A stretch of 64,000 bases of DNA from Heterotrichella gracilis (Eukaryota; Sar; Xanthophyceae; Tribonematales; Xanthonemataceae): positions 205,443-269,442 of the forward strand of contig JAULBX010025164.1 in the NCBI GenBank assembly GCA_032358255.1, given 5' to 3'. The notes beneath the pieces are model-generated. The model worked only from the letters and a program-made list of their open reading frames with translations. It was not told where the DNA came from and ran no database searches. Shown piece after piece: positions 1,898-64,000 of this stretch (position 1 is its first letter; the number at the start of each line of letters is the position of its first letter). The translations under genes and the position numbers were made by a program.

Positions 1898-4800
1898 ATG
1901 GTTTCCCGCGTGCTGCGCCGCGGCAGGCAGGAGGAAAACGAGCCAGTCCTAGTGGCCGCAAAGGAGCTTGAAACAGGTGATATGCCATATTGTTTATAAT
2001 TAAGGGTATCTGCACTTTCCTCGTAAACCACCCTTTCTCGGGAAACAGGTAATTTCATATGATCAAAGCTGATATTGGTATCATTTTCCCCATTGTGAAC
2101 CGCGTTGGTTTAGGAACTGGCAAACCCAGAACCAGGAGTTTATATGCAAACCAATTTGCATAATTGATTTGGTGAAGTCCTCCTGCCAGAACCTAGCTCA
2201 AACTTGCATAATTCCTTTCTGCGCGGATTTTGCAAACTCAGATCAGCATAATTTTCCTGCTGCAGAGCCTTCGGATGAGGAGACAGGGGGGCAAGTCAGG
2301 GAGAAGCGCAGCGTGTCGCGGCGCTGGCGATCGGGGCCGGAGGGCGCGCCCCAGGCCGCCAACCCCTGCTATGGCGTGGCCCTGGTGGTCATGTTCATCA
2401 TGGTGCTTGTCATCTTTGTGCAGCTGAACCACCACCACATCGCGTCGGTGGGCAACACGCTGCAGGTGGGTGTGGTGGAGGTGGTGAGGCGGCGGTGGTG
2501 GTGGGTGGGTGATGGCGGTGGTGTCAGGGTGCGTCTCCCAGCGCGCTAGTCGCTGCTGTGGGTGGCGTTGGTGGTCATGTTCATCATGGTGCTGGTCGAA
2601 TTTGTGCAACTCAACAACCTCCACCTCGCGTCGATGGGCAACACGCTGCAGGTGGGTGGCGGTGGTGGGTGGGTGGGTGATGGTGGCGGTGCCGGGGAAC
2701 CTCCCTGTGCCCTCCAAACTGTTTCAACCTCGCCTGATGGCCATTAATGTTCCCTCCCTTTCTGCAGTCGCTGGAATCTCTCTGCGCCAATGGCGTAAAC
2801 CCCAAGGCAAACATGCAGCAGGCACCGTAACCTGCTCGCTCTTATTTCCCATTGAATTGTGTTTCCTCCCCTCCTGCAGTCGCTTGTGTCTCTCCGCGTG
2901 AATGGCACCAACCCCCAGGCGGAAGCCCAGCAGGCACTGGCGGAGCTCGAGCAGCTGGTGGGGGAGCAAGGGGGGCCAAACAGCAAGCAGGTGAGGAGGG
3001 GGGAGGTGGAGATGGCTGGGATTGGGGGTGTTGGGTTCGGTTGTGTTGGGTGAAGGGGGTGTCGTCTGGGTCTTGACTACATGGACCAGGTTGTCCAGGG
3101 GTTCAGGGTTTAGGGTTTGAGGTTTAAGGTCTTGGGTGTGGCACAACTACCACCCACAATTTATGGCTCTCATTTCCCACCATCACCACCACCACCACCA
3201 CCACCACCACCACCACCACAACCCACCCACGGGCCCAACAGCTCCTCTCCCGCCTACAAGCCAGTCTGCTGCAGCAATGAAGCACCATGGGCCAGGTGGT
3301 TCAGGGTGTAGGGTGTAGGGTATGTTCATGGGCCACCACCGCTGCCCACTATTCTACCTCCCATTACCCACCACCACCACCACCCCGCAGGCCCAACAGC
3401 TCCTCTCCCGCCTACAATCCAGCCTGCAGCAGCAATCGGGCGACATGGTGCGCAGCCTGGAAGCGCTGCATGCAATAGTGTCCAAGGTGGACCCCAATGC
3501 GACCAATGGCGCGGATGTGGGTGTGGATGTGCTTCGGGACAGGGCCACCAGCCGGGTGGGGGACATGGTGACGGAGATTCAGGAGCTGAAGAGTGGGGTG
3601 CGTGGGGGGAGGTGGCAGGGATGGGGGTTTTGGGGAGGATGTGTGCTCGAGTGGGGACATGCCATCCAGCATGAGTGGATTGTGACATTGACATGCATAC
3701 AAGCAAGAATGCATTGTGATGGTGCCATGCATGCATTGCAGCGAGAGTGCAGGTCCGCAGGGTGGGCAAGGTGGTACGCACTTCATACCCACTGCACTGC
3801 AGTGAGAGGCTACCCGCACGGCGCCCCCCATCTCCAGGCACAGTGCAGCCGCAGCACAGAAACCCTACCAAGCATTCCATCTTGTCCACTGGATCTGCTG
3901 AAAATTATATCAAAAGGCAAACCTGCATGCTTTCAGTAACCCACTTCCGTTATTTGGGTATTGGAAACATGGTGGTGGACGCGGCTCCAGTGGCAATGTC
4001 CTTGACAGAGGCACCATCGGCATGCTGGGCACCAACACGTTTCTGTCTTTTACCCATTGTTGAACTATGTTAATATATATATCTTGTTTTGCATTTTTGC
4101 AGCAGATCCAGTGCGACTCCAACGGCAACGCCCTGGACGGCGGCACCATCCGCATGCTGGGTGACAACATGTCTGCTTTTTTTCCAAGTGATTTTTTATT
4201 CATATTAATGTTTTTCTTCTGTAATTTTGCAGCAGATCCAGTGCGACTCCAACGGCAACGTGCTTGACAGCGGCACCATCCGCATGCTTGGCACCAGCAC
4301 GCAGCTCACCCAATCCTCACTGGTCAGCGACGACCAGCACGGCCAGGTGCTGGTCATGTACCCAAAGAACGACGAGTACTACAAGGTGAGGAAAACCCTA
4401 ATGAAAACCCTAATGTGGCTGGAAACCCTAAATTGGCCGGAAACCCTAGGTGCCTCAGTCCCCCCTGTTTAGCGACGACCAGCACGGGCAGGTGCCGTCA
4501 TGTACCCAAAGAACGACGAGTACTACAAGTGAGGAAAACCCTAGGGTGGGGTGTCGGGCGGAAACCTTGCTCTAAGATTTTGAGTGAGAATCCTTGCGAG
4601 TGCTTATGCGTCTGTCCATATTGCATCTTGCATCCACACTGCCACACCCCACACCAGCATCAACAGGATGGGGAGCCGCCTCACCCGGGACTTGCCTATG
4701 CTCTTGCGGGCTGCGGCAGGCTTTCTTCATCACTAATCTGCTATACACCCATACCCACACCCACACCCACATCCGATTACCTCCCCTCTGCAGCCGCAAC

Positions 4801-7800
4801 TTGAGCAGGGTTTCCCCCCTGAGCCGGAGCTCCTGCGTCAGCTGATGACATGGGTCACCCCCGGGTCTGTGGTGGTGGATGTGGGGGCGGGCTTCGGCAT
4901 ATACAGCCTATTCTTTGCAAAGGCGCTGGGCCCCGCGGGCAAGGTGTACGCCTTCGAGCCGCAGCGCAGCAGCTTCAACGTGCGTGGGAACCCTGGGAAA
5001 CCCTAAACATGCGTATGCCTTTGCGCCGCATTGCAGCAGCTCCAGCCTTCCAAGAATGAATACGCTTTAACCCTTTTCCTTGGCAAGCGCTGGTGCGACA
5101 CCTGCTGCTGCCAACATGCTCTTCCCAGGCGGTTCGAAACCCCAGCTCAAACCCTAGCAAAACCCCGAACTCCTCTGGTGCAGCAGCCCACCGCCAACAT
5201 GGTCCTCACCAACATCATGACCATCCACACCCAGCACATAAGCCCCACCAAACCCTACAAAACCCTTAGACCCCATGTGGCACCTGCTGCCTGTCAACAT
5301 GCTCATCCCAGGCGGCACGAAACCCCAGCTCAAACCCTAACAGTACCCTCATCCATGTGGAGCAGCTGCTGACCGCCAACATGGTCCTGAATGACATCAT
5401 GAACATCCACGCGGAGCACATCCCCGTCAACCGTTTCAAGTCCTAACAAATACCCTACCAAACTCTGAACCCCCCTGAACCCTGTCATCATCATACATCC
5501 AACTCAGAAACCCTAGCAACACCCCGAACTCTTGTGGTGCAGCTGCTCACCGCCAACATGGTCCTGAATGACATCATGAACATCCATGCGGAGCACATCG
5601 CCATTGGCCACAAGATCACCACCATCACCATGGCGGCTACTGCAAGTGACGGGCAGAGCCAGGGGCTAAACCCAGCGCAGGTGGGTGTTGGGGTGTGGGT
5701 AGGGCATGTGTTTGTATGTCGGGTGTTTGGGAGGGAGGCAGTTACAAATTAATACTAGAGCATTTTGCAGTGGGTATGTAATGCCAAGGGGAGAGGGATT
5801 CTAGCCCTTACTCACGCCCCCAGCAATCCACCCATTTGGCCCCGTTTAGCCTACCCACTTGTGCCACCCCAGTTTGAAACCCCCAACTCCTACCACCCTG
5901 TCCTCCTGCATACCCTGTCCCACGCCTCCAAGTTCATCTATGGTGGGATCGAAATACGCCCCGGCGGCAAGCCCGTGAACATTGTCCTTTCTGGCCCCTA
6001 TTTGGCTGGCCCCTGACCCTTTACTCCATGTATTTTCCCCCTTTTGGCCCACTCCTCCCACTTCATGTTGCCCCTCAAAATGACCCCCTCCCTCTCCCCT
6101 CCAGGCCCTGTCCCACGCCTCCAAATTCAACTACGGGGGGATCGAAATAGGCCCCGGCAGCGAGCCCGTCAACATGGTCAACCTGGATGTCATAAGCCCT
6201 GTTGACCAACCCTCCAACCCCTTCAAAATTTTCCTTGTTTTGGCCCTCTAGCTTCCTCCATTTGGCCCTCCATTTGACCCTCCAATTGACTCCCACAGGC
6301 CCTGTCCCACGCCTCCAAATTCAACTACGGGGGGATCGAAATAGGCCCCGGCGGCGAGCCCGTCAACATGGTCAACCTGGACGCTATGGGCCTGAGCGGG
6401 GTGAGCCTGCTGCGGGTGGATGCGCAAGGGGGCGAGGGGCTGGTGCTGTGGGGGGCGCGGGAGACCATCAAGAGCCAGCGCCCGGTCATCAGCTATCCCA
6501 CGCGGGGCAAGACCCTGGGCGCGGTAAGGGCACACAGAATGAGTGGCTATGTCAACACACACAAAAAAAGAAGACCAATGGCTGGTTTTAAGTGCTGCAG
6601 CGCATGGCTACTTAATGCATCAGTCTCTGTTGGGTGTGGTGTGGGCTGTTTTGTGTCTACCGAGCTGTTTGCATTTCAAGGGCCGGCGGTCATCAGCTAC
6701 CCCACGCGGTGCAGCACAAACATTGGTGTGGAACAAAAGCGATTCGTCCAATGTGCTCTTACCGCCCCAGCGCCTCTCCACCTACCCGCCCCGCACATGC
6801 TGCCACCTCCCATCTCCCCGTTGTATTCAATAGTGTTTCGATTATATCACTTTCTATCAGTGAATGATAGCCACCTTTCAAACGAGCAATTTCCTTGTTA
6901 GTGTTTAAATGTCAACCAAGTTGACACACTCGCTGAGGCTGGGGATCATGACATCACCTCCCTCAGGATGCAGCACTGAACCTACAACCCACCCCCCACC
7001 GCAGGACATCATCGCCCACTTTGACATCCCCGCCGAGACCGCTTCTCCGTACACACACCCGCACACAAACTCCACCACCTTCCCCCCCTCACCCCCCACC
7101 CCCCTCCGCAGGACATCATCGCCCACTTTGACATCCCCGCCGAGGCCGCCGATTTTGACGTCACCTCCCTGCTCAAGATGCAAGACTATGTGCTGTTTAA
7201 TCCCGATGAGCACAACGTGGTGCTGGTGCCACTGGAGCGCCTACCCAAGGACATGCGTGCAGCTGCTATCAAGCAGAAGGAGGAGATTTTAGCGGCCCAG
7301 AAGAAGGTGAGAGGGGATTCGCGAGGGTTGTGAGGTGTTGTAGGGTGTTTTCCGAGAGTTTTGGGGTAAATGTGGTGTGTTGGTGCCCCTGGTGCGGTTG
7401 CCTGAGGACATGCGCGCAGCTGCTATCAAGCAGAAGGAGGAGATCCTGGCTGGGCAGAAAAATGTAAGAGGGGTTTAGCGATGGCTGTGGGTTGTTTCTA
7501 GAGGGTTCAGGGTGTTTTACGAGGGTTTTGGGACACAATTGTGGTGTGCTGGTGCCACTGGAGCGCCTGCCGGAGAACATGCGCGCCGTTGCCATCAAGC
7601 AGAAGGAGGAGTTACTGGCGGCGCAGAAGAAGGTGGGCGGCGGTGTGGCAAGAGTTGTGGTTTGTTTTAGAGAGGTTAGGGTCTTAGGGTATTTTATGAG
7701 GGTTTTGGGGTACCCGTGGTGTGCCGGTGCCTTGTTGTAGCTGCCAGGCAGATGGAGGAGATCCTGGCGGCGCAGAAGAAGGTGGGCGGTGGCATGGCGA

Positions 7801-8945
7801 GGGTTGTGGGTTATTAGAGGGTTTTGGGGTAACATACGAGGGTTTTGGGGTAACCTACGAGGGTTTTGGGGTAACCACGGTGTGCTGGTGCCCTGGAGCG
7901 GCTGCCGGAGGGCATGCGCTGTGAGGAGGTCAAGGATTGTTTTGCAGGTACAGCATTGCAGTGCCAGTTGGTTGACTGTATGGTGATCAGGAGTGACAGG
8001 AAAAGGGGGCACACCTTGCTGTTGAAATGATTTTTTATCTTGTTGCTTTTCATTTTTCCCTGACAACATATACAGCTTCTTGCCGCTACCTGGTGGCCAG
8101 GCACTATTGGTTGCTTGACTGAATTTTGTGTGTGCCACAGGCTGAGGAGGATGCTAAAAAGAAGGGGGGTGACGCCAAGAAAAAGAGCAAGGACGAAGCA
8201 AAGAAAAAGCAGCAGGAGGAGGAGCAGAAGAAGAAGGAGGCGGAGGATAATAATAAGAAGGACGAGGAGGAAAAGAAGAAGCAGGAGGAGCAGAAAAAGA
8301 AGGACGAGGTGGGAATCTGCTTGCCTAGTGGGAAAACAGGGGAATGGAGCTATTTTGTTTGCATTTTGAATGTTAAAAATCGTTCCTCCCGGGTGTTGCA
8401 TGTGGTCTGCAGACTGCTGGGAGGATCATCATTGTTCTGTTGTGCTGGTAGCGCTGTAGTATGGCTCCCAGGAAATTGAACCATTTTGCTTGGGAGATGC
8501 CCAGGTCCTCCCACATTGTGGCAATTTTTCAAGAAACATTGAAAATATGGCGCTGACCTGCTTACCCTTCTGTAGGAGCAAAAGAAAAAGGATGAGGAGC
8601 AAAAGAAAAAGGATGAGGAGCAGAGGAAAAAGGATGAGGCGGACAAGAAAAAGAAGGACAAGGAGGAAAAGAAGAAGCAGGAGGAGCAGAAAAAGAAGGA
8701 CGAGGTGGGGAGGATGAGATGGTTTTCAATTTTTGTGTTGCTCTGGTATGCCTCCCCGAGATTGGGTGCCAATCCCAGCACGCGCACATGGTTCGCTCGC
8801 TCACTCTGTTTATATCTGGCATGCATTCGCATTAAAAAAGGGAGACAGTTCTGTCCAAATGTATGGGCTTTTCATCGCTATTCTGTCATTTACCTTCCAG
8901 GAACAGAAAAAGAAGGATGAAGAGAGTAAGAAGAAGCAGGGCTAA
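1898..8945 (+). CDS. Membrane-anchored FkbM-family SAM methyltransferase with Lys/Glu tail
   Basis: Twelve exons join in frame to about 611 aa: 1898-1976, 2266-2465, 2880-2990, 3391-3597, 4233-4385, 4794-4979, 5543-5680, 6299-6523, 7112-7306, 8141-8308, 8576-8704, 8901-8945. Residues about 63-80 form one hydrophobic segment after a basic stretch, so a type II (Golgi/ER) anchor is likely. SAM motif I, VVVDVGAGFG, lies at about 276-285 and is followed by the acidic-end motif VYAFEPQ. The LLRVDAQGGEGLVLWGA stretch in exon 8 matches the FkbM core (I-K-I-D-x-E-G-x-E). FkbM enzymes usually O-methylate sugars or lipids; the substrate here is unknown. From about residue 490 the chain becomes EQKKKDE-type repeats to the TAA. 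Intron 1 is phase 1; all later introns are phase 0, so every internal exon from 3 onward is a multiple of three. The ATG at 1898 is the first in frame with exon 2. Family call is firm; the role is inferred. Confidence 0.82.
2561..2651 (+). repeat. 3' echo of methyltransferase exon 2 (transmembrane exon)
   Basis: This intronic copy repeats the 3' part of exon 2: the hydrophobic segment (MFIMVLV), the NTLQ end and the donor GTGGGTGG. It lacks the exon's 5' half and an obvious acceptor. It lies just downstream of the intact exon. Confidence 0.8.
2761..2825 (+). repeat. 5' echo of methyltransferase exon 3
   Basis: The CTGCAG acceptor and the first ~58 nt of exon 3 are repeated just upstream of the intact exon (2880-2990). 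The copy reads SLESLCANGVNPK against SLVSLRVNGTNPQ in the real exon, then runs into a stop. Confidence 0.8.
3181..3279 (+). repeat. (CAC)n tract followed by 5' echo of exon 4
   Basis: A CAC/CCA trinucleotide run (about 3181-3221) is followed from 3231 by a copy of the first ~45 nt of exon 4. The intact exon at 3391 is preceded by a shorter CCA run too, so the duplicated unit included the intron tail. The poly-His frame across the tract is not a gene. Confidence 0.7.
3981..4168 (+). repeat. Two 5' echoes of methyltransferase exon 5
   Basis: Copies at about 3981-4041 (degraded) and 4103-4168 (near identical) repeat the opening of exon 5 (QIQCDSNGN..LD.GTIRMLG). The second copy keeps the TTTTGCAG acceptor. 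The intact exon is 4233-4385. Confidence 0.85.
4471..4534 (+). repeat. 3' echo of methyltransferase exon 5
   Basis: The last ~60 nt of exon 5 (SDDQHGQV..YPKNDEYYK) and its GTGAGG donor context are repeated downstream of the intact exon, with a 1-nt loss at the junction. Four AAACCCTA words lie between the exon and this echo. Confidence 0.85.
5181..5430 (+). repeat. Two 5' echoes of methyltransferase exon 7
   Basis: Copies at about 5181-5240 and 5361-5430 repeat the start of exon 7 (LLTANMVLNDIMNIHAEHI). Both keep a GTG(C/G)AGCAG-like acceptor edge. The intact exon starts at 5543. AAACCCTA words separate the copies. Confidence 0.85.
5911..6193 (+). repeat. Two 5' echoes of methyltransferase exon 8
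   Basis: Copies at about 5911-5992 and 6101-6193 repeat the first 80-90 nt of exon 8 (LSHASKF.YGGIEI.PGG.PVN). The second is almost identical to the intact exon at 6299 and keeps the CCAG acceptor. Confidence 0.87.
6681..6710 (+). repeat. 3' echo of methyltransferase exon 8
   Basis: About 30 nt matching the end of exon 8 (PVISYPTRG) recur downstream of the intact exon, then diverge. Confidence 0.65.
7001..7051 (+). repeat. 5' echo of methyltransferase exon 9
   Basis: An acceptor (CCGCAG) plus the first ~45 nt of exon 9 (DIIAHFDIPAE) are repeated upstream of the intact exon at 7112. Confidence 0.85.
7380..7921 (+). repeat. Cluster of four 3' echoes of methyltransferase exon 9
   Basis: Copies at about 7380-7468, 7539-7634, 7718-7784 and 7881-7921 repeat the end of exon 9 (LERLP..MRA.AIKQKEE.LAAQKK). 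The first three still end at a GT donor; the fourth is only a fragment. Between them, GAGGGTTTTGGGGTAA-type spacer is itself repeated. This is the deepest 3' echo cluster in the gene. Confidence 0.85.
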
Positions 8946-11638
8946 ATCACTAAGAAGGAGGTGCGACCAGAAAAGCAGCAGGTGCGCACTTGTGTGTGGC
9001 GCGTTCCATTGTTATTATGATGTGCTGCAAGTATAAACCACCGGTTCATCATATAATTGGCAAATGAAGTTGGAGATTAAATCGTAGACTGTATTGTATG
9101 TTTCCCATGCAATGGCTGTGTGCTGGCGCAGTGATGAGTGCGCACCTTCAATGGGGTACCAGGCAGCGGTGCTATGGCATGCAGCGAGTGGCTGGCCGCC
9201 AGTAGCCTTGAAGGAGTGCGCCGCCCTGGCAGGAGTGCGGTCCGCTTCAAGTGATGGCGCCAACCCTACCCCCTCTCAAGCAGCTTGGCCCATGACCTGG
9301 TCATGGGCGTCCGGCATGGGGCTATGGATATGCCAACGGCCGCCATGTTCAGGGTTTGGGGTGCACCCAGTGCAACCTGCTTTGCGTCGACTCTGTACGG
9401 TCAAAGTCGGCCTGGCAGTGCCTACTAGCCTCAAGCTGGCAGCCTGTGGAGCGGCTCAGTGGTTTATTGAATCATAGAAAAACAAGTGACTCGAGATTTT
9501 GAATGGATGATTTATATAGCACTTTAATCTGTACGTGTGAATCATTCAATGGTTGTGACCCTTAATTTCAGGATCAAGACTTACAGTTACAGCTGAGCTC
9601 ATGTGAATTGGCAATTCACATGAGCACCGGGTGGCACCGGGTGTTACAATATGTCGTGCGGCTATCGGTACCCGTGGTTGGATGCTCCATAATTGTATTT
9701 AATTTATTAGTCATTATCATATTATTATTGGAATTAGTCAATCCAATAATAGTTAACGCCGCGTTAATTGAGGCTCACACTGTAGGTCGCTCCGAGCCAT
9801 GGCGTGCCGCATAGTAATACTATGACTCATGGCGGACGGCCGGCATCAATATCATGAACACACACTGAGTGCGCATCGATGATCATCGGTGACGTGACGG
9901 CAGGGCCCTGGCGATGGCAATGCCTGTACAATGCCTGGAGCCTTGACTTCCAAATTGGCAGCACCTGCTCCAAGACTTGTCACAACGGTATTTCGAGCTT
10001 TACTTCATATTATGCAAAAGATCCCGGGGCCCAAGTCAGGGGCTGTCCAGTAAATGTATTGCAGTTTCAATTTGAAAGTTAAATCAGATCACAGACCTCG
10101 CCATTGGCAACCTGTCCATCACACGGCTTCAAAACACCACAGGTCACGAGGCTCAGCACCCTTATTGCTGTCGTACACATACAGCAAGCCGCGCCCACCG
10201 GCCACTTAGTCTACTTTTTTTCAAGCGTTTCTCATACGTTGCCACTTACCCTACCAATGGTATGGTAGCATGGCATGGTAGCTGGCACAGAAAAGCCACA
10301 CTGTCAGCCGAACCAATCCCCCAGGCCACACACGAGGGGGGGCGCAGCCCTACTCAAATCATGGCCAAAGCTCTACATCAATCACGCGAGCTGCTGGAAA
10401 CCATGAGCCTGCAACACAGCCGATGCACGAAAAGGTGTGCATTTGCTTGCTGCAAGGGCCCCAGCGCCTAAAAAGCCCCCCATACCCCCAATTTCTTTCA
10501 CTGAACTCAAATGGTGGCCAGGCATGCTGATGCGAGGCTGTAAATGCACGTCTATCCAGTACACAAGGACAAATGGTGCCAGCAGGGTGCTTGCTGACAG
10601 GAGACAGCTTGAGTAAAAAAACACACACAAGCGCATCCAGAAATGCTGTGGAACACAAAGCGAGGGTCACTCCACCGCACAGCCAAACCCTCGACCTCGA
10701 CTGAGGGTGTCACAGGAAACGAGGCGCCTACTGCACACCAGCAAGACAGAAACTCTCTATGCAGAGCCGGGGTAGCCTGCTCACAAGGAATCACTTGAAA
10801 AGGAAGCGCACCCAGGCGGGTTGAAAATGTTTATTGTGAAGGGGATATGAAGCCACATGGGGTTGCCAGCTGCCAATGGGGCGGGTAAGAAAAATGGTGC
10901 CCGACGGCGGCGGCTATTCCGACAGCTCTGCCAGTATTAAGGGACAAAGAGGAACTATACAAGTGCGGACCAATGCACGGGCATGGGGGCACAACACAGG
11001 CGGGGAAAAGCTACAAACAACGCTGCTAGGGGCACGCCACTCGTGCCAAGGGGACAAAAGGGTGGCTGCCACAAAGGGGGGCACACACATATACAAGTCA
11101 CATACAAGGCTATGGTACAGGACACGTGTGCGGTTCAGGCCAACTTTCACTGCACGCACACAGCTCCCAGGCCCTCAAACCACAATTGGGGTTTAGGATT
11201 TAGGCCCCCGAAAAACGCTGGGGAATCAAGTCTCAAATACCAAGCAAAACACAGTTGCATCAACCAGTCTTCTACAACAAGTATACAAACCTACCAATTC
11301 TACCAATTCCGACAAGTACACAATTATCTACTACGATCTTCGCTACCAATCAATCTTCTCATCAAATCCAAATTCATCGTACACAGTCTCCTGATATATC
11401 ATACACCGAGCCCAGCTTCACCACTTTCTAAGCCGCCGCTTCCTACCAAATGGAAGCTCCGTCATTGCTGGCCAGTTTCAGGCCAGCTGAAAGTATACCA
11501 CCCGGGCATCCGCCATCCACCTCCACTCAGCTTGGCGCCTCACGCCATGCCACACACCCCGCCCGTCACAAGGCCGCAGGCTCACCACTGCTGCAGCACA
11601 GCCAATTGTGGACAGGCGCCGACCCCATCCCCCCTCGG
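8946..11638. other. Intergenic between convergent genes 1 and 2
   Basis: No coding region is recognised. The interval must hold the 3' UTRs of the methyltransferase (+) and the RelA/SpoT gene (-). It includes the palindrome cluster at 9597-9824. I could not place polyadenylation sites with confidence. Confidence 0.5.
9597..9824. repeat. Cluster of short perfect inverted repeats
   Basis: Four hairpin-capable palindromes lie within 230 bp: 13-bp arms with a 3-nt loop at 9597-9625; 10-bp arms (TATTATTGGA / TCCAATAATA) at 9723-9751; TTAACG/CGTTAA at 9753-9767; CATAGT/ACTATG at 9810-9824. No transposase or flanking direct repeat was found, so identity as a miniature element is unproven. Confidence 0.6.
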
Positions 11639-14600: not shown

Positions 14601-15597
14601 CCTTGCGGCTGCGCCCGGCAAAGGCGGAGCGCGCGACCGCGTAGGCGCGGATGACCACGGGGGAGCGGAAGACGGGGTAGGTGCCCTGCGGGGGTGGGGG
14701 GCGGGGATTGAGGGGGTGGCGCGCGGTGTTGCAGAGTTCACTTGCTCGGCTTTGCTTGACTGTGGACACGTGCCCCTTAAACAACCACATGCGTTGCGGG
14801 CTGCTGAGGAGTGGATGTGGTGAGGAAAGAAATCGATAGAAGTGGATGATGGAAGTGGGACAGCAATTTGAATTGCAACCAGTCCCTTGCAGAAGGTGGG
14901 TATTGGCTTACCTGCAGGTAGAGCAGCTCCTGGTCTACAGGGTTTGGCGCCTGCTCCTTGGTGGGTGGCAGCTTTTCCCGCTCTGCTATCTTCGACTGCA
15001 AGCACAAACAGCAGCTCAGGGACTTGGCAGAGTTGTCTAGCAAGCAGCAAAAGTTCACACAAGCAGGTTGGGGAAGAAAGGGCAAGGGGGCATCCTGCTT
15101 CAGGGTTCAAATTTCAAGGCAAGGAAGCGTACCCTGAAGGCTGCTGGCAGCGGGACCACGTTGGAGGCGGTGGCAGAGGGGATGTTCTCTTTGCTGAACT
15201 GGCGGGTCAGCAGGCCCGAAGTGGTGGGCTGTCGCGGCACCGGCCGCTCCAGGGGGACCGCTGTGGGGGTCATGGGCGCCAGCGCAAAGCCCTCTTGCCG
15301 CTCAAAGGAGGGTGCAATTGGGAGGTTGGAGGGTCGCTTGAGGGACGGGGCTGAGGACTGGCTTGAGCGCGATGTGCTGACCTCATTGTCTTGGGAGGCC
15401 ACGCGCGCTGGGGTGTTGGACCGTGACCTGAAGCTGTTTGCAAACTCCTCGAAGGAGCCGCTGAGCCGGAGGGAGACGTCGTCGCTGTTGCCTGGGCCTC
15501 CCAGGCTTTTGGGGAAGGGGTTTGCCCTTTTCACAGAGCTGTCTTTCCAGGATCGGGAGACGGGTGCGTTGGTGGGGGCGAAGACTGCATACGCCAT
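11639..15597 (-). CDS. RSH: RelA/SpoT homologue, (p)ppGpp synthetase/hydrolase (plastid type)
   Basis: Eight exons on the minus strand join to about 729 aa: 15597-15133, 14995-14912, 14685-14446, 14223-13936, 13716-13420, 13242-13001, 12444-12177, 11944-11639 (TGA). Residues 1-155 are Ser/Pro/Arg-rich, consistent with a chloroplast transit and linker region. The hydrolase domain shows H219, H243-D244 (HDVLDDT) and D319 ([12 protein letters not shown]). The synthetase domain shows [28 protein letters not shown] and EIQIRT with the likely catalytic Glu near 498, then [16 protein letters not shown]-like domain follows ([38 protein letters not shown], about 600-680). The chain ends about 50 residues later with no ACT domain. 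Such enzymes make and degrade (p)ppGpp from GTP/GDP and ATP. Both active sites look intact, so it may be bifunctional. Confidence 0.9.
12488..12523 (-). repeat. 5' echo of RSH exon 7
   Basis: The start of exon 7 (FLCTWHLEL) is repeated in the upstream intron, on the higher-coordinate side as expected for a minus-strand gene. Confidence 0.75.
12857..12874 (-). repeat. 3' echo of RSH exon 6 donor edge
   Basis: A short copy of the exon 6 end (CTGGGCAAG and its GT donor) lies downstream of the real donor at 13001/13000. It is only 18 nt, so confidence is moderate. Confidence 0.5.
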
Positions 15598-28095: not shown

Positions 28096-28159
28096 GGAGG
28101 AGATTTGTAGGGGATCTGTAGGGTTTGGGGTTTAGGGTTGTGAGGGGAGAGGAGGCACA

Positions 28160-28390
28160 TGTGCACAAACCCTGGCACAAGAGGTGGGGCAAGAAGTGGG
28201 AGGCCAAGAAGTGGTTCTGAGCGGGAGACGCACCCTGGGATGAATGCAACGGGAAGGGGGAGCAGCGATGCAATGGAGGGGGGAAAGTACTGCAGGTGCT
28301 AGCAGGGTGTAGTGCATAGGAGGGGAGGTACAAAAGCTTGGGCACTTAAAGTGGGACAAGGATTGGAAGCCTTAGAAGTGGGTCTGAGGA
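28160..28390 (+). repeat. Two 3' echoes of gene 5 last exon
   Basis: About 28166-28220 repeats the KKWGKKW..KKWF-stop end almost exactly; about 28340-28390 is a more decayed copy. Because this is the terminal exon, these echoes lie in the 3' UTR or flank. Confidence 0.82.
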
Positions 28391-56300: not shown

Positions 56301-56671
56301 AGGCGTGCTCCAAGGGGTGGGAGCAGCATGCGATCAAGGGGAACGGGGAGGAAACTGTCAGTGGGGAATTGCGTGGCGGACCGTGCGCATTGGCGCTTGG
56401 ATATACGCCTGCTGGTGTACGAGAGTGTGTGGCTGCACTTGAGGATGGGGATGTGCAGGGTGTGCAAGGGCGCAAGGGTACACATGTGTGCGGCGAAGTC
56501 CAAGGAGGAGAGGTTTCATCTGTGCCTCCTGGGCAGCAGCACACGGGTGGGCTATGTGGTGTGCGGTTTGGGGGGGCGGGGTTGGAATGTGTGCACCAGC
56601 TTGCTTCAGCTGTGCAGCAGGCAGTGGAGGACATGCAGAGTCACATGGTGGAGCCTCTGGCAGGGGTTTAG
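44335..56671 (+). CDS. Very large coiled-coil protein (about 2176 aa), function unknown
   Basis: Twenty-seven exons close in frame: 44335-44712, 44927-45114, 45370-45893, 46254-46420, 46674-46766, 47082-47222, 47487-47672, 47971-48117, 48299-48433, 48633-48806, 49052-49210, 49424-49564, 49772-49900, 50044-50177, 50410-50606, 50796-50914, 51101-51249, 51450-51636, 51887-52032, 52307-52469, 52689-52829, 53027-53275, 53417-53521, 53709-53984, 54196-54543, 54724-55158, 55352-56671. Residues 1-126 are Ser/Gln-rich and polar. About 150-1476 is almost unbroken Gln/Glu/Ala/Leu heptad sequence, with a Pro/Gln break near residue 960-1000. Then come a polar Pro/Ser segment, a Gly/Asp segment and a 439-aa last exon. 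I do not recognise the family. A structural role (basal body, centrosome, Golgi tether) is only a guess from the coiled-coil architecture. No membrane segment is seen. Confidence 0.78.
47388..47423 (+). repeat. 5' echo of coiled-coil gene exon 7
   Basis: GCCGCAG then CACTCGTGTCAGCTGCTGCAG repeats the opening of the exon at 47487. ACCCTA-rich intron follows. Confidence 0.65.
50296..50361 (+). repeat. 3' echo of coiled-coil gene exon 14
   Basis: ELAL.TKERAMLAQA and the GCAAG|GTGC donor are repeated downstream of the intact exon (50044-50177). Confidence 0.85.
50955..51003 (+). repeat. 3' echo of coiled-coil gene exon 16
   Basis: CAGCTACAGCAGGC..GGGC...GCGCAGAGGCACAG matches the end of exon 16 and lies downstream of its donor at 50915. 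Confidence 0.7.
52142..52166 (+). repeat. 3' echo of coiled-coil gene exon 19
   Basis: ATGGCG.ACAAGCTGCAC.GGTG repeats the exon end and donor downstream of the intact exon. Confidence 0.6.
53165..53521 (+). repeat. Duplicated exon retained in frame (exons 22 and 23)
   Basis: Exon 23 (53417-53521) repeats the end of exon 22 (GQLKQMLADSREQL.QREAALAAQ, GEHE) including its donor. It also has a TTTCCAG acceptor and is 105 nt, so it can be spliced in without shifting the frame. It is either a 3' echo or a newly used exon. Confidence 0.75.
53712..53935 (+). repeat. Threefold internal protein repeat in exon 24
   Basis: Three tandem units share the pattern ARC.(D/E)LE.SQAQCQALEEQLA, alternating Cys and Gln. 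They lie inside one exon, so this duplication was fully coding. Confidence 0.85.
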
Positions 56672-57508: not shown

Positions 57509-60500
57509 ATGGCTTCACACAATGACTACCGGCCTGACATAGAAGCTGGCAGCAGCAGGGTGATCAGAGGGGTTGCGCTGCAGTCTAGGATAGGAAGCAT
57601 ACTGCTTGGACCAGATGGCTCGTTTTCGTTTCGACCAGATGAGGTAGGTACTAAGGCTGTGGCACACACTCATAGTGCCCAGCTCGGTCTACCTGCAACC
57701 ACTCAATACCTTTGCAAGCTGTCCCTCTGAGTGTCACTGTTTGCGAGATCATATCCTGGTATGTTATATGCATGCATTGTCTGAGACATGCCACTGATGA
57801 ACAACCATGCCTTGGGTCTATGTTACACCCATGTCATAGTTGCATCGAGAGACAAGTGGCATCCCTTCCCCCGCAGGATACCGCCGTGGGCTGTTGGCCT
57901 TTCCAGTCAACCCCCGCTTTGGAGGTACGCCCAAATACCACCTCTTTGTGGTGCAAACGCCTGTACCACATTCTTTTTGCCCATGCCAGTAACCACTCAG
58001 TCACGCACAGATACCACTGGTTGATGTCCGTGAAAGATGCTCCACAGCACCTATCCTTACTCCGAAAACTAAGGAAACCCGCCAATTCTTGGTGCAGTTG
58101 CAACCAGGGGACTTGGCTGGGGCAAGTCAGGAGGGCACGTCAGGCTTCCTGGTTTGGTATTTCAAGAAGCAGGACCATCCTGTCAAGTTGAAACGGTGAG
58201 GGCAGTGCACCACCCTGGGAGCAGTGTCCTGACGTGTTGTCCTGAGTACTTGAGTGTGCTAAACCCTACGTTAGGGTGTTGGGCAAAACCTTTTGACAGC
58301 CCCTCACCCAACACGTTGCAGAAACCTCTACACCTCCCTCGTCAACCTTGAACCTAAACCCTAAAGCCCAAATTTCAAAACCCTAAAACAGTGTGGAGTG
58401 GCAGTCTGACTCCCAACACGCTGCAGGAAGCTCTACACCTCTCCAGTATTCAAATGCGCGCGCTCCGATCAAGCAGCTGCAGCCGTGCACGACATTCGCA
58501 CACTTGCAAACCCCAAGCCAAGGACTGCGCTCCTGATAGCAAACCCCGTCAGTGGCACTGGAAGGTTTGTATCCCCATTGCCATCCCCAACACTTTCCCC
58601 AGCGGTGTCCCAATAATGGGCAGTAATGGGTTGACTACGTGGCGTTTTGCATCTGTGCTCACCCATTGTGCACCACATACCCACACCCAGTCCCATGATG
58701 ATGGTCGGAATCCCTGCTGGTGGCGTATTTATATCGCCCTTGTCAACCCACGTTACTCTGTGCAGTGGCGTGAAGGCTGTGCAGCGCGCCTTCGACCCTA
58801 AACCCTTACACCCTAACCCTCATTACCCATTAAATCCTAAAACCTTCAGCCAAGTCCTTAACGCTTTAACCCTGATTAGGCCATAACTACCCCTGTGGTG
58901 CAGTGGCTTGAAGACTGTGCAGTCCCGCGGCCTCCCCCTGCTGGCAGCCATAGGCATGACTGTGGAGGTGAGGGAGACTGCGCACAAGGGGCACGCGACC
59001 GAGATGGCCACGAGGTTGAATGTGGGCAACTATGATCTCGTCATCGTGGCAGGTGCGTGCGTGTATCTCGAAGTGCGTATTGAAGAGGGGTTTAGCGGTG
59101 CGTGTGGGGAGGATGAGGTGTTTTCGTGCGGGGTTTGAAAAGTGTTGCAAGCGGAGGGGCACTGCGCACAGAGAGGGGTGGGTTTTCAGGAGGGGTTTGG
59201 TAGAATCTGGTGTAGTAGTGTTTGCATGTGGGGTGTTGGGGTGAGGTGATTGGGCACATGGGGCATGCTACAGAGATGGCCAGGAGGCTGAATGTGGGCA
59301 ACTATGACCTGGTCATTGTGGCATGTGCATCTTTGAAGTGGGTAAGGAGTTTCTGTGGAGGGCTGGTGGGTCTAATGCTATACTTCACAGTATACTTGAC
59401 CAAATGCTGATCCTGCTCCCCACGATCATAAATGCCTATTGATTGAACAACTCATCGAGGCAACCTTTGTTTATTACAACCCGTTCAATGGTCCATTGGC
59501 AGCTGATCAATTACACCACCGCTGATCGATTCCAGGTGGCATGAAAATTCCATTCAGAATGCTGATTAAATGCAGGTGGCGACGGCTCCATGTTCGAGGT
59601 GTTGCAGGGCCTGCTGTCGCGCCCCGATTGGTCCACCGCCATCAAAGTGCCACTTGTCGGCCTGCCACTGGGCACAGGCAATGGGTTATGCGCCAGCTCT
59701 GGGCTGTGGGACTTTGACACGGCGCTGTGGGCAATTTGCAGGTGCGCCAGCGTTTGTAATCAATCATAATAATTATAATAAATATATCATGACAAGAATG
59801 AAATTGTTATCATTTGGCAACCATCCAATTGGATACACATTTGTTTATTCAAAAAAATTGTTATATCTCATAAAAATATTATTTTTAACAATAAATATTG
59901 TTTATTTTGTGTAATCCTACCCTACGCATAAGACCCTAAACCCTAAACTTTGAATTCCTCAACCCAGGGGCAGGACCCACCAGCTGGACATCGCCTCGGT
60001 CCTGCAGCCCTCATCAGGCACCCTAAATTGTTAAACCCTAATGTATGTACCCTAAAACCCTTCTCCCTACCTCAGGGGCAGGACCCACCAGCTGGACATC
60101 GCCTCTGTGCTGCAGCCCTCGTCAGGCAAGCGATTCTACTCCTTCCTGTCCATCACCTACGGCTTCATTGCCAACCTGGACATCGGCACGGAACACCTAA
60201 GGTAGGGGTTTTTGGGGGCATGCTTTAGTGTTGGCGCAATGAAATGATGCATACTGGCGTTCATAAGTACAGCCATGGTCATGAATTGTGTGGCAGGTAA
60301 GTGGGCCGAGTCGCACATCCTGCTAGGAGCACTCCAATTATATTGGTTTATGTGTAGTTTATTACCAAAGATAATGGATTTCATTGGGTGGGCAAGTTAT
60401 GTATCTTATCTGACATGCAGGTGGATGGGTGAGTCCCGCATCCTATTAGGGGCGCTCCAGCAAATACTGGTGCGGAAGAGCTTCGCAGCCAAAGTGGCCC

Positions 60501-61770
60501 TACTCCCCGCCTCAGAGGCCGCCCAAAACCCTAATCCAGCCCCCCAAAACCCTAGCGAACCCTCGCCAGTGGCCGCCTGCCCAGCGGGCCCCGCCACGCA
60601 CCTCTTGGAAGCCTTTGGGGACCCCGCCAAATTCGACGCATCCGACGCGTCGACGCTCCCCCCCGGGTGGCAAACAATAGGCCCTGAGCCGCTGCAGCTG
60701 TTTGCGGTGTGCAATGTCGCGTGGCTGGATGCGCAGTTCAATGTGGCGCCTCCCGCGCGGCTCGACAGTGGTACGCACATCTACACCTTGCACTGCACCC
60801 ACCCTTCCACCTTCAATGCGCCACTCGTAACCCACACCCGTCCACAACCTGCCACATAATTGGGGGGGCAGACCTTTACACAATTCACCAAAAAACGATA
60901 TGCGGTATACCAGGACGCTCGGACATTGGCATGCCCGCCAATCATCACCCCATCCAACCAATCTCTCCTCATCCCTTCCACAGGTTGCTTAGACGTGGTT
61001 ATGACCCGCCACGCCACCCGGGGAGAGGCACTTGAGATGCTCCTGAAGAGTGAGAAGGGGGAGCAAATGGGGCTCAAGCAACTGCAACACCACCAGGTGG
61101 GTGTGCTGCTTTAGTGTTTAGCCCCTTGCCTTATGTGTAGTAGGGCGTGGGTGTGGAGCAGGAACCCTGGGCTAGGGTTGTAGATGGGGCTCGAGCAGCT
61201 GCAACACCACCAAGTACGGATGAATTCCTGTAGTAGGGCATTCACTGTTTGGGACATAACGTACTATGTGTATTGACCAGCGATCTAAGTACACCAAATG
61301 AGCTTACCCACACCTCCACTCATCACCCTTCCACCCCCGGCAGGTATCCGCTCTTGTCACTGCGCCAGTGAGCACAGTCACCTGGCTGGTGGTGGATGGG
61401 GAGACATGGATAATGTGTTGTGTGATTTGTATAAGCATATATGACACTTGCTTTATGTAATTTTTGAAGGTACAATCAATTGCCTTCATGCAGGTATCCG
61501 CCCTTGTCACTCAGCCAGTGAGCACCGACACCTGGCTGGTGGTGGATGGGGAGACAGGGATAATGTGTTGTGTAATCTGTATAAATGTATATAACATTTG
61601 CTTTATGTATTTTTTTGAAGGTACAACCAATTGCCTTCATGCAGGTATCCGCTCTTGTCATCCAGCCAGTGAGCACCGACACCTGGCTGGTGGTGGATGG
61701 GGAGGCGGTACCACTGGAGCCCCTGTACATCCAGGTGCACCCGGGGCTGGCAACAGTCATCACAGCGTAA
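57509..61770 (+). CDS. SPHK: Sphingosine (long-chain base) kinase, DAGK-catalytic family
   Basis: Ten exons join to about 511 aa: 57509-57643, 57877-57924, 58011-58195, 58427-58564, 58904-59052, 59576-59741, 60076-60201, 60421-60770, 60984-61096, 61645-61770 (TAA). The catalytic domain opens with ALLIANPVSGTGSG (~160-172). GHATEMATRLNVGNYDLVIV leads to the nucleotide-binding GGDGS (~219-223). PLGTGNGLCASSG (~249-261) matches the PxGSGNxL motif. FYSFLSITYGFIANLDIGTE and RWMGESRILLGAL follow in the family's order. The end is VVDGEAVP...YIQVHPGL, as in sphingosine kinases. Length fits plant SPHKs. The enzyme phosphorylates sphingoid bases with ATP, giving signalling lipids, probably at internal membranes. 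The N-terminal ~120 aa (FLVWYFKKQDHP) look PH-like. The NPVSGTGSG motif is split across exons 4 and 5 and reads correctly only with this splice, which supports the model. Confidence 0.9.
58319..58345 (+). repeat. 5' echo of kinase exon 4
   Basis: TTGCAG then AACCTCTACACCTCCC repeats the exon 4 start (KLYTSP), upstream of 58427. Confidence 0.65.
58745..58796 (+). repeat. 5' echo of kinase exon 5
   Basis: GTGCAG then TGGCGTGAAGGCTGTGCAG repeats the start of exon 5 (SGLKTVQSR), upstream of 58904. Confidence 0.75.
59264..59327 (+). repeat. 3' echo of kinase exon 5
   Basis: GHATEMARRLNVGNYDLVIVA repeats the exon 5 end almost exactly, downstream of the donor at 59053. Confidence 0.9.
59967..60017 (+). 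repeat. 5' echo of kinase exon 7
   Basis: CCCAG acceptor plus GRTHQLDIASVLQPSSG, nearly identical to the start of exon 7 at 60076. CCCTAAA words lie between copies. Confidence 0.9.
60297..60342 (+). repeat. 5' echo of kinase exon 8
   Basis: GGCAG then a degraded WMGES(R/H)ILLGALQ, upstream of exon 8 at 60421. Confidence 0.8.
61180..61214 (+). repeat. 3' echo of kinase exon 9
   Basis: MGL(K/E)QLQHHQ and a GTACGG donor are repeated downstream of the intact exon ending at 61096. Confidence 0.8.
61341..61644 (+). repeat. Two-unit ~150-bp tandem array, 5' echoes of kinase exon 10
   Basis: GCAG|GTATCCGC starts recur at 61344, 61494 and 61645 (period 150-151 bp). Each of the first two units has ~70 nt of exon 10 (VSALV..PVST.TWLVVDGE) fused directly to intron tail (ATAATGTGTTGTG to CCTTCATGCAG). 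The third occurrence is the intact exon. Introns within units match as well as exon parts, so the duplication is recent. Confidence 0.93.
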
Positions 61771-63072
61771 GGGAGACAGCAGAATCCATGGCAGCGACAG
61801 GGAGTTGCAGAAACCCCTGCCAGTGATATACTGGAATTGGCCGCACGCATGTAGATGGTGGGCTGTTGCTACTGCAGCTGCTGGGCAAGACCTAGTAGGT
61901 AGCTACGTAGAACACCGTACTCACAAACTGCGTAAAATCGGGCGCATTTTCATAGGCGATAATATATTTCATCTGTTTTTGAACACTTCGCAAATATCAG
62001 CATTATGACGTTCATTGTACACTTTCGACACTGTTAGTTTGCACTTTAATTGCATTTGTTTGCGCTGTGCGCTTATTAGCCACGCCTGTTGATTGCATGT
62101 AACGAAGTAACTAATTGTTGTTGCATGCCAATGCTTGATCCCCAACGGTGCGCAACGCAATACCATGCCATGTCATACAGCTCAAAATTGCTCGCAGGCT
62201 TGAGATGGCCATGGCACACCATGATGGGACGGAAGAAAGGAGGAATGGGATTGCTTAATGTTTGTAGCGCAGTATACTACGTAGGTGTATGCAGCTGCCC
62301 ATAGGGTTGTAAAACTAAACTATTATTGCAGCTGCCCAATTGCTTTCAAGGCCATTTGCAGTAGCTTTTAATAACTGCAAGCCATCAACACTGCAGAACA
62401 AGAGCGTATTTGTCGCACTAGGGGACACGTTGCAATACCACGTTTATAACAGCGATGCGCGCTGGCGAGACTCCCTCGAACGTGCATGCATGTGAACACG
62501 GAACAGCCCTTCTTGGGACCCAACCTAGGCAGTCACCAGCCACACCAGCGGAGTTAATACCCAGTTGTTTTCGTGGCCCATTTTTTGCTCGCCAAAGTTT
62601 TACCAATTCACTTTCACTGCAAAAGCCACGAGCAGTATTTGCGCAATGCATGCATACGACCCCACTTTGCCACCCTCCTGAAGTGTTATGCTAGCCCAAG
62701 ACCTGCTTAACTACGTACGTAACTCAGTATTATATAGCTGGATTATCAGTATGCATACTTTGCTTGCGCCGGCCAGGCCTAGCATGCTATAGCACTGGCA
62801 TCTCACGATCCCAGCGCACACCGCGGGTGCACTCGCTAGCCCGGCAAACACCACGCCACACTACTTTGGGTCCCACTTTTGGGACTCACCACTAGCTCGT
62901 CAATCCTGGCTCCAAGGCATCAGTACCCTATTCGCCCCGAACTACTCACACCCCCAGCTGCAGTCAGCCCTAAACCCTAAACTCTTATAAACCCTGTTTC
63001 CAGCGGTGCTCTACGACCTCTGCACTGGAGATTTCCTTCCAGGCAGCTACAGCGCATCAGGCGGGAAAGCAG
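61771..63072. other. Intergenic between kinase and oxygenase genes
   Basis: No gene recognised. TGTAA occurs at about 62097 and 62305 and could serve as the kinase polyadenylation signal. Near 62826-62850 a segment (CACTCGCTAGCCCGGC) matches the start of gene 10 and is a possible distant echo. Confidence 0.4.
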
Positions 63073-63240
63073 ATGCAAGTTTCAGCCCGCCGCCTCCCCC
63101 GCCACCTAGCCAATACCCTCCTCCGGGGTCCACTTTCCCTCCCCCCCTCATGCTTCACCACCCACCTTGACCCGGAGCAGTTCACACCTCAGCCACAGCC
63201 ACAGCCACAGCCACAGCCACAGCCGCTACGCGAGGCGCAG
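63073..63240 (+). repeat. Duplicate of gene 10 N-terminal coding region plus CAGCCA repeats
   Basis: Reading MQVSARRLPRHLANTLLRGP through THLDPEQFTPQ, this repeats the intact N-terminus at 63241 (MHSLARRLHHHPATTLLRAP through THLDPEQFTPQ). It ends in a (CAGCCA)n run encoding Pro-Gln. It stays in frame with the intact copy, so it may be an extra N-terminal extension or an untranslated 5' echo. Confidence 0.8.
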
Positions 63241-64000
63241 ATGCACTCGCTAGCCCGGCGCCTACACCACCACCCGGCCACCACCCTCCTCCGTGCCCCA
63301 CTCTCGCTCGCCACCAGCTCCACCATCAAGCTTAGAAGCTTCAGCACGCACCTTGACCCCGAGCAGTTCACACCCCAGCTACAACAAGCCATCACACCAA
63401 CAGTGTGCCAGCAGCTGGCGACCAAGGGGTATGCGGTGGTGGATGGGGCGGTGGGGGGGGACGCCGCCACCCGCCTGCGCGAGGAGGTGGAGGGGGTGCG
63501 GGCCGCGGGGCTGATGCACCTCAACACCACCCACATCGTGCACGGTGGGGGCCGGGACTACGTGGAAAAGTCCGCGATTCACGAAGCGGAGCTCTTTGAG
63601 GAGGTATGGACTCTTGTTAATTTATTTTATTTTTCTTTATTTTAATCTATACAGGTCATGTGCACCGTATTTACCATCGTGACATCATTAATTTGTACAT
63701 TCCTTGTGTTTTGGGTTGTATTTCAATGCGCCCCCAGACGGTGCAGCAAGCCGTTCGCATCATTGACAATGATTATATTGCTTTTATTTTTAGTTAGTTA
63801 GTTAGTTAGTTAGTTACATGCATTCCAGCAATACAGCCAAATTAGCAGTCAGTCTTGCACATGCGGCGCCACGCAGCTCTTTCCTGGCACTGTTTGAACC
63901 ATCTATCGATCCCACGTGACTTTAGGTCCTGCTGGAGTAGGTCAGCCCACGTGGCCCTTGGCTTACCTACCCCCTTTGCCCCCTCTACCCTACCAAACAC
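63241..64000 (+). CDS. Probable 2-oxoglutarate/Fe(II) oxygenase, first exon (cut by window edge)
   Basis: The first coding exon is proposed as 63241-63603, 121 codons ending at a GTATGG donor. The rest lies beyond 64000 or in exons I cannot identify in 63604-64000. The start MHSLARRLHHHP..LLRAPLSLA is Arg/Ser-rich without acids, as in mitochondrial targeting peptides. Then CQQLATKGYAVVDGAVGGDA and RLREEVEGVRAAGLM resemble the N-terminal part of the double-stranded beta-helix fold of phytanoyl-CoA/prolyl-4-hydroxylase-type dioxygenases. The HxD...H iron ligands would lie downstream and are not visible, so the enzyme class is provisional. An upstream in-frame ATG at 63073 would add 56 residues. 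The intron carries a (GTTA)n run near 63793-63815. Confidence 0.5.

Follow-up and report, generated by a model that had tools for sequence, protein, structure and literature searches.

A stretch of 64,000 nucleotides from the genome of Heterotrichella gracilis (Xanthophyceae; assembly GCA_032358255.1, contig JAULBX010025164.1, positions 205,443 to 269,442), here called the window, contains 60 truncated copies of exons lying close to the exon that they resemble, 54 of them in introns and six in the flanks beyond gene ends. We call these copies echoes. An echo upstream of an exon keeps the start of that exon, often with the acceptor site, and a downstream echo keeps its end, often with the donor site. 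Very probably the echoes are the outer copies left by serial tandem duplications whose two breakpoints lie one in the exon and one in the intron. An earlier note, made from the letters of the window alone, had counted by eye about sixty truncated exon copies in introns, and this count is borne out.

The gene models of the window were obtained with a small script-based gene finder followed by hand curation, and comprise nine genes with 92 exons and 83 introns (Table 1). Comparison of the window with itself using BLAST (Basic Local Alignment Search Tool) gives 54 direct repeat pairs, 51 of which start less than 1 kb apart, and four inverted pairs; none of three Markov shuffles of the window gave a direct or an inverted pair. 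Echoes were sought by comparing each exon of at least 40 nucleotides (nt; one of the 92 is shorter) with its flanking introns. The null was provided by exons compared with the introns of other genes (1092 comparisons), of which 0.64% reach the threshold score of 20. This score is reached by 21 of 83 exon 5' sides and 17 of 82 exon 3' sides, where about one false echo is expected by chance. Given shuffles free of repeats and this low null rate, a chance origin of the echoes is rejected. An iterated search yields the full set of 60, in which the 54 intronic echoes belong to 38 exon sides. Identity to the exon ranges from 66 to 98% (median 85%), and no whole-exon copy is found among the 54 intronic echoes.

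Echoes occur in 32 of the 83 introns and involve 32 of the 92 exons. They had been reported from nine genes, or nearly every gene: all eight models that have introns carry at least one intronic echo, but the spread is uneven, with echoes in eight of 11 introns of the methyltransferase gene (g1), four of 26 in the coiled-coil gene (g8) and one of seven (a 28-nt copy) in the RelA/SpoT gene (g2), and a frame at 24120-25640, which we take to be F-box-like, lies outside every local repeat cluster. Echoes on both sides are found at methyltransferase exons 5, 8 and 9, exon 9 of a presumed bZIP-type gene (g7), the last exon of g5, exon 9 of the family-X DNA polymerase gene (PolX, g6) and exon 2 of the DUF3685 gene (g3). 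The previous list of two-sided exons stands for the methyltransferase, bZIP-type and g5 exons; from exon 5 of the kinase gene (g9), which was also on it, only the 3' echo passes the threshold, and a short 5' echo near 58766 is seen by eye.

Polarity and probable serial tandem duplication

On the 5' side of exons, 27 intronic echoes hold the 5' part of the exon, one is internal and none holds the 3' part; on the 3' side, 19 hold the 3' part, seven are internal and none holds the 5' part. The alignment of exons to their flanking introns with scoring of the retained end, run on the window, thus gives counts of 27:0 and 0:19 for the echoes that touch an exon end rather than equal numbers on both sides, and the polarity described in the earlier note is confirmed (Fisher P = 2.4e-13, with echoes treated as independent though those in arrays share a history). 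When the midpoint of each echo is used instead, 60 of 60 obey the rule. The polarity is a geometric consequence of tandem duplication across an exon border and not a separate biological rule: if the duplicated unit crosses the border, the outer copy is necessarily truncated, and polarity is therefore a signature of tandem duplication.

The same pattern is found elsewhere in the assembly (68.5 Mb in 903 contigs). We drew 15 further stretches from 15 contigs (144 kb in total; one lies on the contig of the window, far from it) and used automatic gene models with exons shorter than 40 nt dropped and introns limited to 1500 nt, giving 360 exon sides. Local direct pairs less than 1 kb apart occur in 12 of the 15 stretches. 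There are 38 echoes, in 11 stretches, with about two chance matches expected; those with one exon end are distributed 9:1 in favour of the 5' part on the 5' side and 1:15 in favour of the 3' part on the 3' side. Seven others are internal matches (six fit the midpoint rule by eye) and five are 'whole' matches, all to predicted exons only 42-54 nt long. Assemblies are known to contain false tandem duplications, and the echoes might in principle be such artefacts. We give this next to no chance, since the copies differ by 2-34%, with frameshifts, and the pattern recurs on other contigs. One stretch (L005, 2812-3829) contains a very young direct pair (367 bases at 98% identity, period 651), which is suited to reading a fresh junction.

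Within arrays the copies are direct, neighbouring and share a period, and several echoes can occur at one border. For the 38 nearest intronic echoes the unit length is 67-273 bp (medians 151 and 155), and the periods are spread evenly modulo 3 (15, 12 and 11 of 38). On the 5' side no unit includes fewer than 41 nt of intron, and on the 3' side the minimum is 21 nt. In 25 of 46 boundary echoes (16 of 27 on the 5' side and nine of 19 on the 3' side), homology extends beyond the splice site to a degree that exceeds the 95th percentile of the null. Together, polarity, periodic arrays and homology past the splice site give good support to serial tandem duplication with an exon breakpoint, as had been proposed. 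In such an event the unit would start in the intron and end within the adjoining exon, or the reverse; the outer copy becomes the echo, and the intact exon is the copy still joined to the remainder of the exon. Splicing would stay on the whole-exon copy, since a splice module is duplicated along with the rest of the unit. On the 5' side, the 41 nt or more of intron would give room for a branch point, pyrimidine tract and AG; an acceptor module is longer than a donor, and the minima of 41 and 21 nt thus fit a filter for a working acceptor. Duplications that contain a whole exon, or lie within one, would mostly be lost by selection.

A related possibility is that tandem duplication of an exon segment containing AG/GT gave rise to the introns themselves (the Rogers model). 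This involves the same type of mutation (PMC4974935, PMC2891723). Under that model, the donor end of an intron should repeat the start of the exon downstream, and its acceptor end should repeat the end of the exon upstream; the observed echoes lie within introns, next to intron-type splice sites of their own. We consider it hardly probable here.

Once formed, echoes decay as neutral DNA. Substitutions relative to the exon amount to 183/1387 (13.2%), 185/1376 (13.4%) and 320/1379 (23.2%) at the first, second and third codon positions, with an excess at the third of the kind expected from silent changes of the exon itself. Gaps are mostly not multiples of three (62 of 72), and 13 of the 60 echoes have in-frame stops. 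In the same arrays, pooled identity between echoes (85.1%) is lower than between echo and exon (87.4%; 22 pairs). AG is kept in 20 of 27 echoes and GT in 14 of 19 (both 74%), where neutral change of 13% at each of two sites would leave about 75%; 17 of the 20 kept AG sites and 10 of the 14 kept GT sites score above the lowest tenth of real sites. The idea that these genes live with decoy splice sites is thus supported in part: intact sites exist, but only at about the rate that neutral decay would leave. The intact sites could also be taken as a sign that echoes are functional alternative or mutually exclusive exons. We give this very little credence: each echo has at most one exon end, codon positions 1 and 2 change equally, frameshifts are frequent, and the echoes in the kinase gene are missing from homologous proteins (by eye, no second copy of the echoed exon parts is present in eight homologues).

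Echo-bearing introns have a median length of 421 nt, compared with 219 nt for the others (P = 1.6e-9). Repeat clusters, counting both copies, span 30% of intron DNA (calculated from 30 of 33 clusters, leaving out two exon-exon clusters and one at the window end), and echo bodies alone account for 14%. These figures, with introns about twice as long where echoes are present, support the suggestion that echoes contribute to intron growth. Of the exonic bases, 11% have an intronic echo at 80% identity or more.

Exon borders and telomere-type words

Two features that the earlier note passed over are the strict tie of the repeats to exons and the abundance of telomere-type words in the introns. Every local repeat cluster in the window touches an exon (33 of 33, or 34 of 34 with a finer seed), and none lies wholly inside the 17.5 kb of intergenic DNA or the 26.5 kb of intron. 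Two of the 33 are exon-exon pairs within the coiled-coil gene. These tandem duplications are kept in frame (53181-53278 with 53427-53524, and 53705-53925), and longer protein repeats may be tolerated in this gene. In the sampled stretches 37 of 40 repeat pairs touch predicted exons, three lie in predicted introns and none is intergenic (the automatic models give 87 kb of intron, which probably includes some intergenic DNA, 43 kb of exon and 15 kb of intergenic DNA).

This tie could be a detection effect: duplication might be uniform along the genome and visible only at exon borders, where the constrained exon copy diverges more slowly. The intronic parts of units are indeed more diverged. We simulated uniform duplication with loss of protein-changing events, decay derived from the echoes and the same BLAST search (the exon-exon class was left out). 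The simulation puts 50-53% of detectable events at exon borders, and increasing the indels two-fold or five-fold gives the same result, so that faster loss of noncoding pairs at the rates tried does not reproduce the exon-only pattern. Under this expectation the probability of 34 of 35 clusters touching exons is about 5e-9; dropping the exon-exon clusters leaves the conclusion unchanged. Since the simulation falls short of the observed exon share, the excess is no simple detection effect, though noncoding turnover may in reality be harsher than modelled.

A looser search with exons masked gave eight direct pairs at expectation values (E) up to 0.1 that overlap echoes little or not at all. By eye, six are intronic parts of echo units, one is intron-only and one is telomere-like. 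The intron-only pair is the one clear tandem duplication of its kind (46434-46622, in an intron of the coiled-coil gene; period 79, 75% identity), and the telomere-like one is a 27-base pair in an intron of the PolX gene (29642/29758). Both speak for uniform duplication. Relaxing E to 1 yields as many inverted as direct pairs of this kind (10 each). Weighed against the simulation, the window and the samples, a detection effect is unlikely. The exon tie is unexpected, and duplication across borders by itself gives no account of why breakpoints need an exon. It suggests a mutational process sensitive to gene structure, or else strong filtering that is hidden from view.

TTTAGGG is probably the telomere repeat of this genome, to judge from CCCTAAA/TTTAGGG repeats within the first ten bases of seven listed contigs; such repeats also occur inside others. 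Rotations of TTTAGGG are the commonest class of 7-mers in the introns of the window (338, with 30.5 expected). Echo-bearing introns have 17.5 telomere-type words per kb and other introns 7.0, a difference of about 2.5-fold (per-intron P = 3.6e-5); in the sampled stretches the figures are 20.6 and 7.3 (P = 0.02; length-matched, P = 0.04).

The words are also unevenly placed. On the sense strand, 95 TTTAGGG-type words lie in the 5' half of introns and 14 in the 3' half; CCCTAAA-type words occur in both halves (94 and 135, respectively). This bias could reflect splicing signals (G-rich sequence after donors and CTAA-like branch points before acceptors) or repair scars.

It is conceivable, with less assurance than for the duplications themselves, that they arise when staggered breaks are repaired by fill-in, in DNA that abounds in telomere-type repeats. 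Fill-in at such breaks has a precedent as a source of tandem duplication: CST with DNA polymerase (Pol) alpha-primase, which also fills in telomeres, is one published route to small tandem duplications (PMC8355091), and tandem duplications in plants after adjacent nicks are the subject of a study cited there (PMC4932966). A tentative extension, which we regard as doubtful, is that this lineage has exon-directed duplication: the telomere-type machinery (CST and Pol alpha-primase) would fill breaks or nicks in transcribed, exon-bearing DNA and so produce duplications of about 150 bp that need a breakpoint in an exon, the telomere-type repeats in introns being a second scar.

Several observations weigh against serial tandem duplication as the origin of the echoes, or against the form of it outlined here. 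In 21 of the 46 boundary echoes, similarity on the far side of the splice site does not exceed the null, though several of these look homologous by eye if indels are allowed. The predicted units average 64% identity in their intronic part and 86% in their exonic part, and only 16 of 38 units beat all nulls (38 of 42 nearest pairs were tested, some with one to three null pairs). For the outermost echo of g9 exon 10, and among adjacent copies at g3 exon 8, homology apparently goes no further than the splice site or its vicinity. Of the 26 one-ended echoes in the sampled stretches, two break the polarity rule; these exceptions may be gene-finder errors or chance. Under uniform duplication about half of the copies that can be detected should lie clear of exon borders, where almost none occur. 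Finally, enrichment of telomere-type words at the junctions themselves, whose exact positions are blurred by decay, is not clear (10 of 38 within 30 nt for the nearest echoes, with 6.0 expected, and 22 of 54 within 25 nt, with 14.8 expected).

Homology that ends at the splice site is more readily explained by an insertion of filler, or by very rapid turnover of introns, than by plain duplication. Exon fragments might thus have been inserted in nearby introns from RNA or DNA elsewhere, by retro-insertion or filler capture. This would agree with the few arrays in which homology stops in this way, and with three inter-copy segments that are found nowhere else in the assembly; the lack of an outside match also speaks against captured filler. 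Random placement would put both exon ends on both sides, in conflict with the strict polarity of the echoes, and by eye these are flanked by intron-type acceptors or donors and not by the neighbouring exon of an mRNA. Insertion is therefore very unlikely, and a template of mRNA is rejected on the same ground, since upstream of the echoes there is intron-type sequence and not the previous exon. Introners or another shared mobile element were also considered and rejected: three of three inter-copy segments match only themselves (in a best-candidate search that skips common words).

Gene models and positions of the echoes

The curated reading frames have no internal stop, except that the g3 model overruns its own stop; g10 is cut by the window end. 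A family scan of seven proteins (all but those of g5 and g8) gave a Pfam match for five (FkbM methyltransferase, RelA/SpoT, DUF3685, family-X polymerase and diacylglycerol kinase) and none for those of g7 and g10. We presume g7 to be of the bZIP type from its basic motif. The kinase of g9 has 31 matches, many unnamed; the best of the named ones are green algae, among them Micractinium, Chlorella, Symbiochloris, Haematococcus and Chlamydomonas, at 33-44% identity, and a cyanobacterium and two fungi rank lower. By eye, the g9 model fits eight relatives along most of its length.

The donor of g8 exon 6, at 47216, is apparently GC, and the frame remains open with it. The F-box-like frame has an in-frame stop at 24681, and the gene finder models it as two exons separated by a 96-nt intron. 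In the RelA/SpoT gene, one intron contains a long imperfect palindrome (12608-12839; 73% over 238 columns), and there is a smaller one at 19687-19756. Two of the sampled stretches have larger duplications: five direct pairs about 3.7-3.9 kb apart, perhaps tandem gene copies (L008, 977-5738), and one direct pair 7.6 kb apart (L018, 948-9190).

Table 1. Genes of the window, each followed by its echoes. Positions are those of the window; percentages are identities; AG and GT are the acceptor and donor dinucleotides.
Feature	Position	Strand	Remarks
g1 FkbM-domain methyltransferase	1898..8945	+	12 exons; echoes in 8/11 introns; PF05050
g1 exon 2, 3'-side echo	2508..2651	+	3' part, GT kept
g1 exon 3, 5'-side echo	2768..2825	+	AG kept
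g1 exon 4, 5'-side echo	3233..3290	+	acceptor lost
g1 exon 5, outer 5'-side echo	3981..4039	+	
g1 exon 5, inner 5'-side echo	4103..4177	+	AG kept
g1 exon 5, 3'-side echo	4456..4529	+	
g1 exon 6, 3'-side echo	5013..5044	+	short, at threshold
g1 exon 7, outer 5'-side echo	5186..5239	+	AG kept
g1 exon 7, inner 5'-side echo	5366..5425	+	95%
g1 exon 8, outer 5'-side echo	5913..6008	+	
g1 exon 8, inner 5'-side echo	6105..6198	+	94%
g1 exon 8, 3'-side echo	6676..6713	+	internal class
g1 exon 9, outer 5'-side echo	6916..6977	+	internal class
g1 exon 9, inner 5'-side echo	7005..7042	+	97%
g1 exon 9, 3'-side echo 1	7369..7462	+	GT kept
g1 exon 9, 3'-side echo 2	7534..7632	+	GT kept
g1 exon 9, 3'-side echo 3	7736..7781	+	GT kept
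g1 exon 9, 3'-side echo 4	7874..7918	+	internal class
g2 RelA/SpoT homologue	11639..15597	-	8 exons; echo in 1/7 introns
g2 exon 7, 5'-side echo	12486..12513	-	28 nt
g2 exon 8, echo beyond 3' end	11566..11630	-	
g3 DUF3685 protein	17632..21853	-	8 exons; 3' end of model overruns stop
g3 exon 2, 5'-side echo	21201..21269	-	
g3 exon 2, 3'-side echo	20798..20847	-	internal class
g3 exon 4, 3'-side echo	19815..19877	-	GT kept
g3 exon 4, outer 3'-side echo	19545..19637	-	66%
g3 exon 8, outermost 5'-side echo	18341..18410	-	
g3 exon 8, middle 5'-side echo	18174..18260	-	
g3 exon 8, nearest 5'-side echo	17961..18051	-	
g5 glycine/proline/lysine-rich protein	26727..28095	+	3 exons
g5 exon 3, 5'-side echo	27748..27812	+	
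g5 last exon, echo 1 beyond it	28175..28220	+	
g5 last exon, echo 2 beyond it	28282..28387	+	
g6 family-X DNA polymerase (lambda-like; PolX)	29383..34942	+	12 exons
g6 exon 3, 5'-side echo	30100..30158	+	
g6 exon 5, 5'-side echo	31206..31288	+	92%
g6 exon 6, 3'-side echo	31919..32039	+	90%
g6 exon 9, 5'-side echo	33193..33321	+	68%
g6 exon 9, 3'-side echo	33695..33788	+	internal class
g7 presumed bZIP-type	36929..42755	-	11 exons
g7 exon 1, echo beyond 5' end	42763..42824	-	weak
g7 exon 2, 3'-side echo	41796..41870	-	
g7 exon 2, outer 3'-side echo	41695..41745	-	internal class
g7 exon 3, 3'-side echo	41167..41312	-	
g7 exon 3, outer 3'-side echo	41000..41058	-	internal class
g7 exon 4, 5'-side echo	40731..40814	-	95%
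g7 exon 5, 5'-side echo	40146..40222	-	
g7 exon 8, 5'-side echo	39091..39138	-	weak
g7 exon 9, 5'-side echo	38575..38609	-	
g7 exon 9, 3'-side echo 1	38255..38295	-	
g7 exon 9, 3'-side echo 2	38148..38188	-	98%
g7 exon 9, 3'-side echo 3	38042..38085	-	
g7 exon 9, 3'-side echo 4	37954..37990	-	
g7 exon 10, 5'-side echo	37630..37708	-	
g8 long coiled-coil-like (label by eye)	44335..56671	+	27 exons; echoes in 4/26 introns
g8 exon 7, 5'-side echo	47387..47421	+	
g8 exon 14, 3'-side echo	50285..50353	+	internal class
g8 exon 16, 3'-side echo	50955..50998	+	
g8 exon 19, 3'-side echo	52127..52160	+	at threshold
g9 diacylglycerol/sphingosine-kinase-like	57509..61770	+	10 exons
g9 exon 5, 3'-side echo	59234..59323	+	
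g9 exon 7, 5'-side echo	59968..60020	+	94%
g9 exon 9, 3'-side echo	61175..61212	+	
g9 exon 10, outer 5'-side echo	61344..61403	+	
g9 exon 10, inner 5'-side echo	61494..61553	+	95%
g10 partial gene at window end	63241..63603	+	no Pfam match
g10 exon, outer upstream echo	62828..62976	+	
g10 exon, inner upstream echo	63084..63216	+	

Known systems and meaning for intron DNA

The earlier note knew of no named class for these copies, but precedents are closer than this implies: tandem duplication as a source of introns is an old idea (PMC2891723, PMC4974935), and models of intron gain are built on it. In the potato RdRp case (PMC4974935) a short duplication across an exon-intron border carries the branch point, pyrimidine tract and acceptor, as the units behind the echoes would; there, one event makes a new intron and alters the structure of the gene, whereas here the structure is unchanged and the truncated copy decays within an intron that was already there, and this has happened dozens of times. 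Intron sliding and exon tandem duplication in Drosophila (PMC2891723) likewise involve partial duplication of exonic DNA near introns, in five of 31 near intron pairs across 12 genomes, compared with 32 of 83 introns in one window here. Work on tandem exon duplication (PMC9013439) also deals with exon-like copies adjoining exons, with whole exons and their expression in focus. Such homologues at 80% identity cover 0.08% of exonic bases in fly, 0.06% in worm and about 2% in human according to that work; the methods differ from those that gave our figure of 11%.

Fill-in by CST-guided Pol alpha-primase at 3'-protruding breaks gives small tandem duplications with no need of repeats (PMC8355091). 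That system concerns induced breaks with 43-base overhangs in mammalian cells; the units here are larger, the repair route is conjectural and the exon tie is new. Introners (PMC9860276) resemble echoes in changing introns in bulk across a genome, but here no shared mobile sequence was seen in the three inter-copy segments. Among the open-licence papers listed, no description of the pattern appears in titles or opening lines. The echoes are a dense new form of known tandem-duplication processes: the type of mutation is known, and the density, the strict placement at borders and the decay in place are new relative to the literature examined.

The origin of intron DNA is an old question, and in the window part of the answer is legible in individual copies, each with its polarity and age. 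Splice-site choice can also be studied in the echoes as a natural experiment, with a single gene carrying one splice site twice, once intact and once decaying, at a distance of about 70-270 bases. If duplication is indeed exon-directed in this lineage, duplication at exon borders would be a main engine of intron length in this genome, and the echoes would be its datable record.

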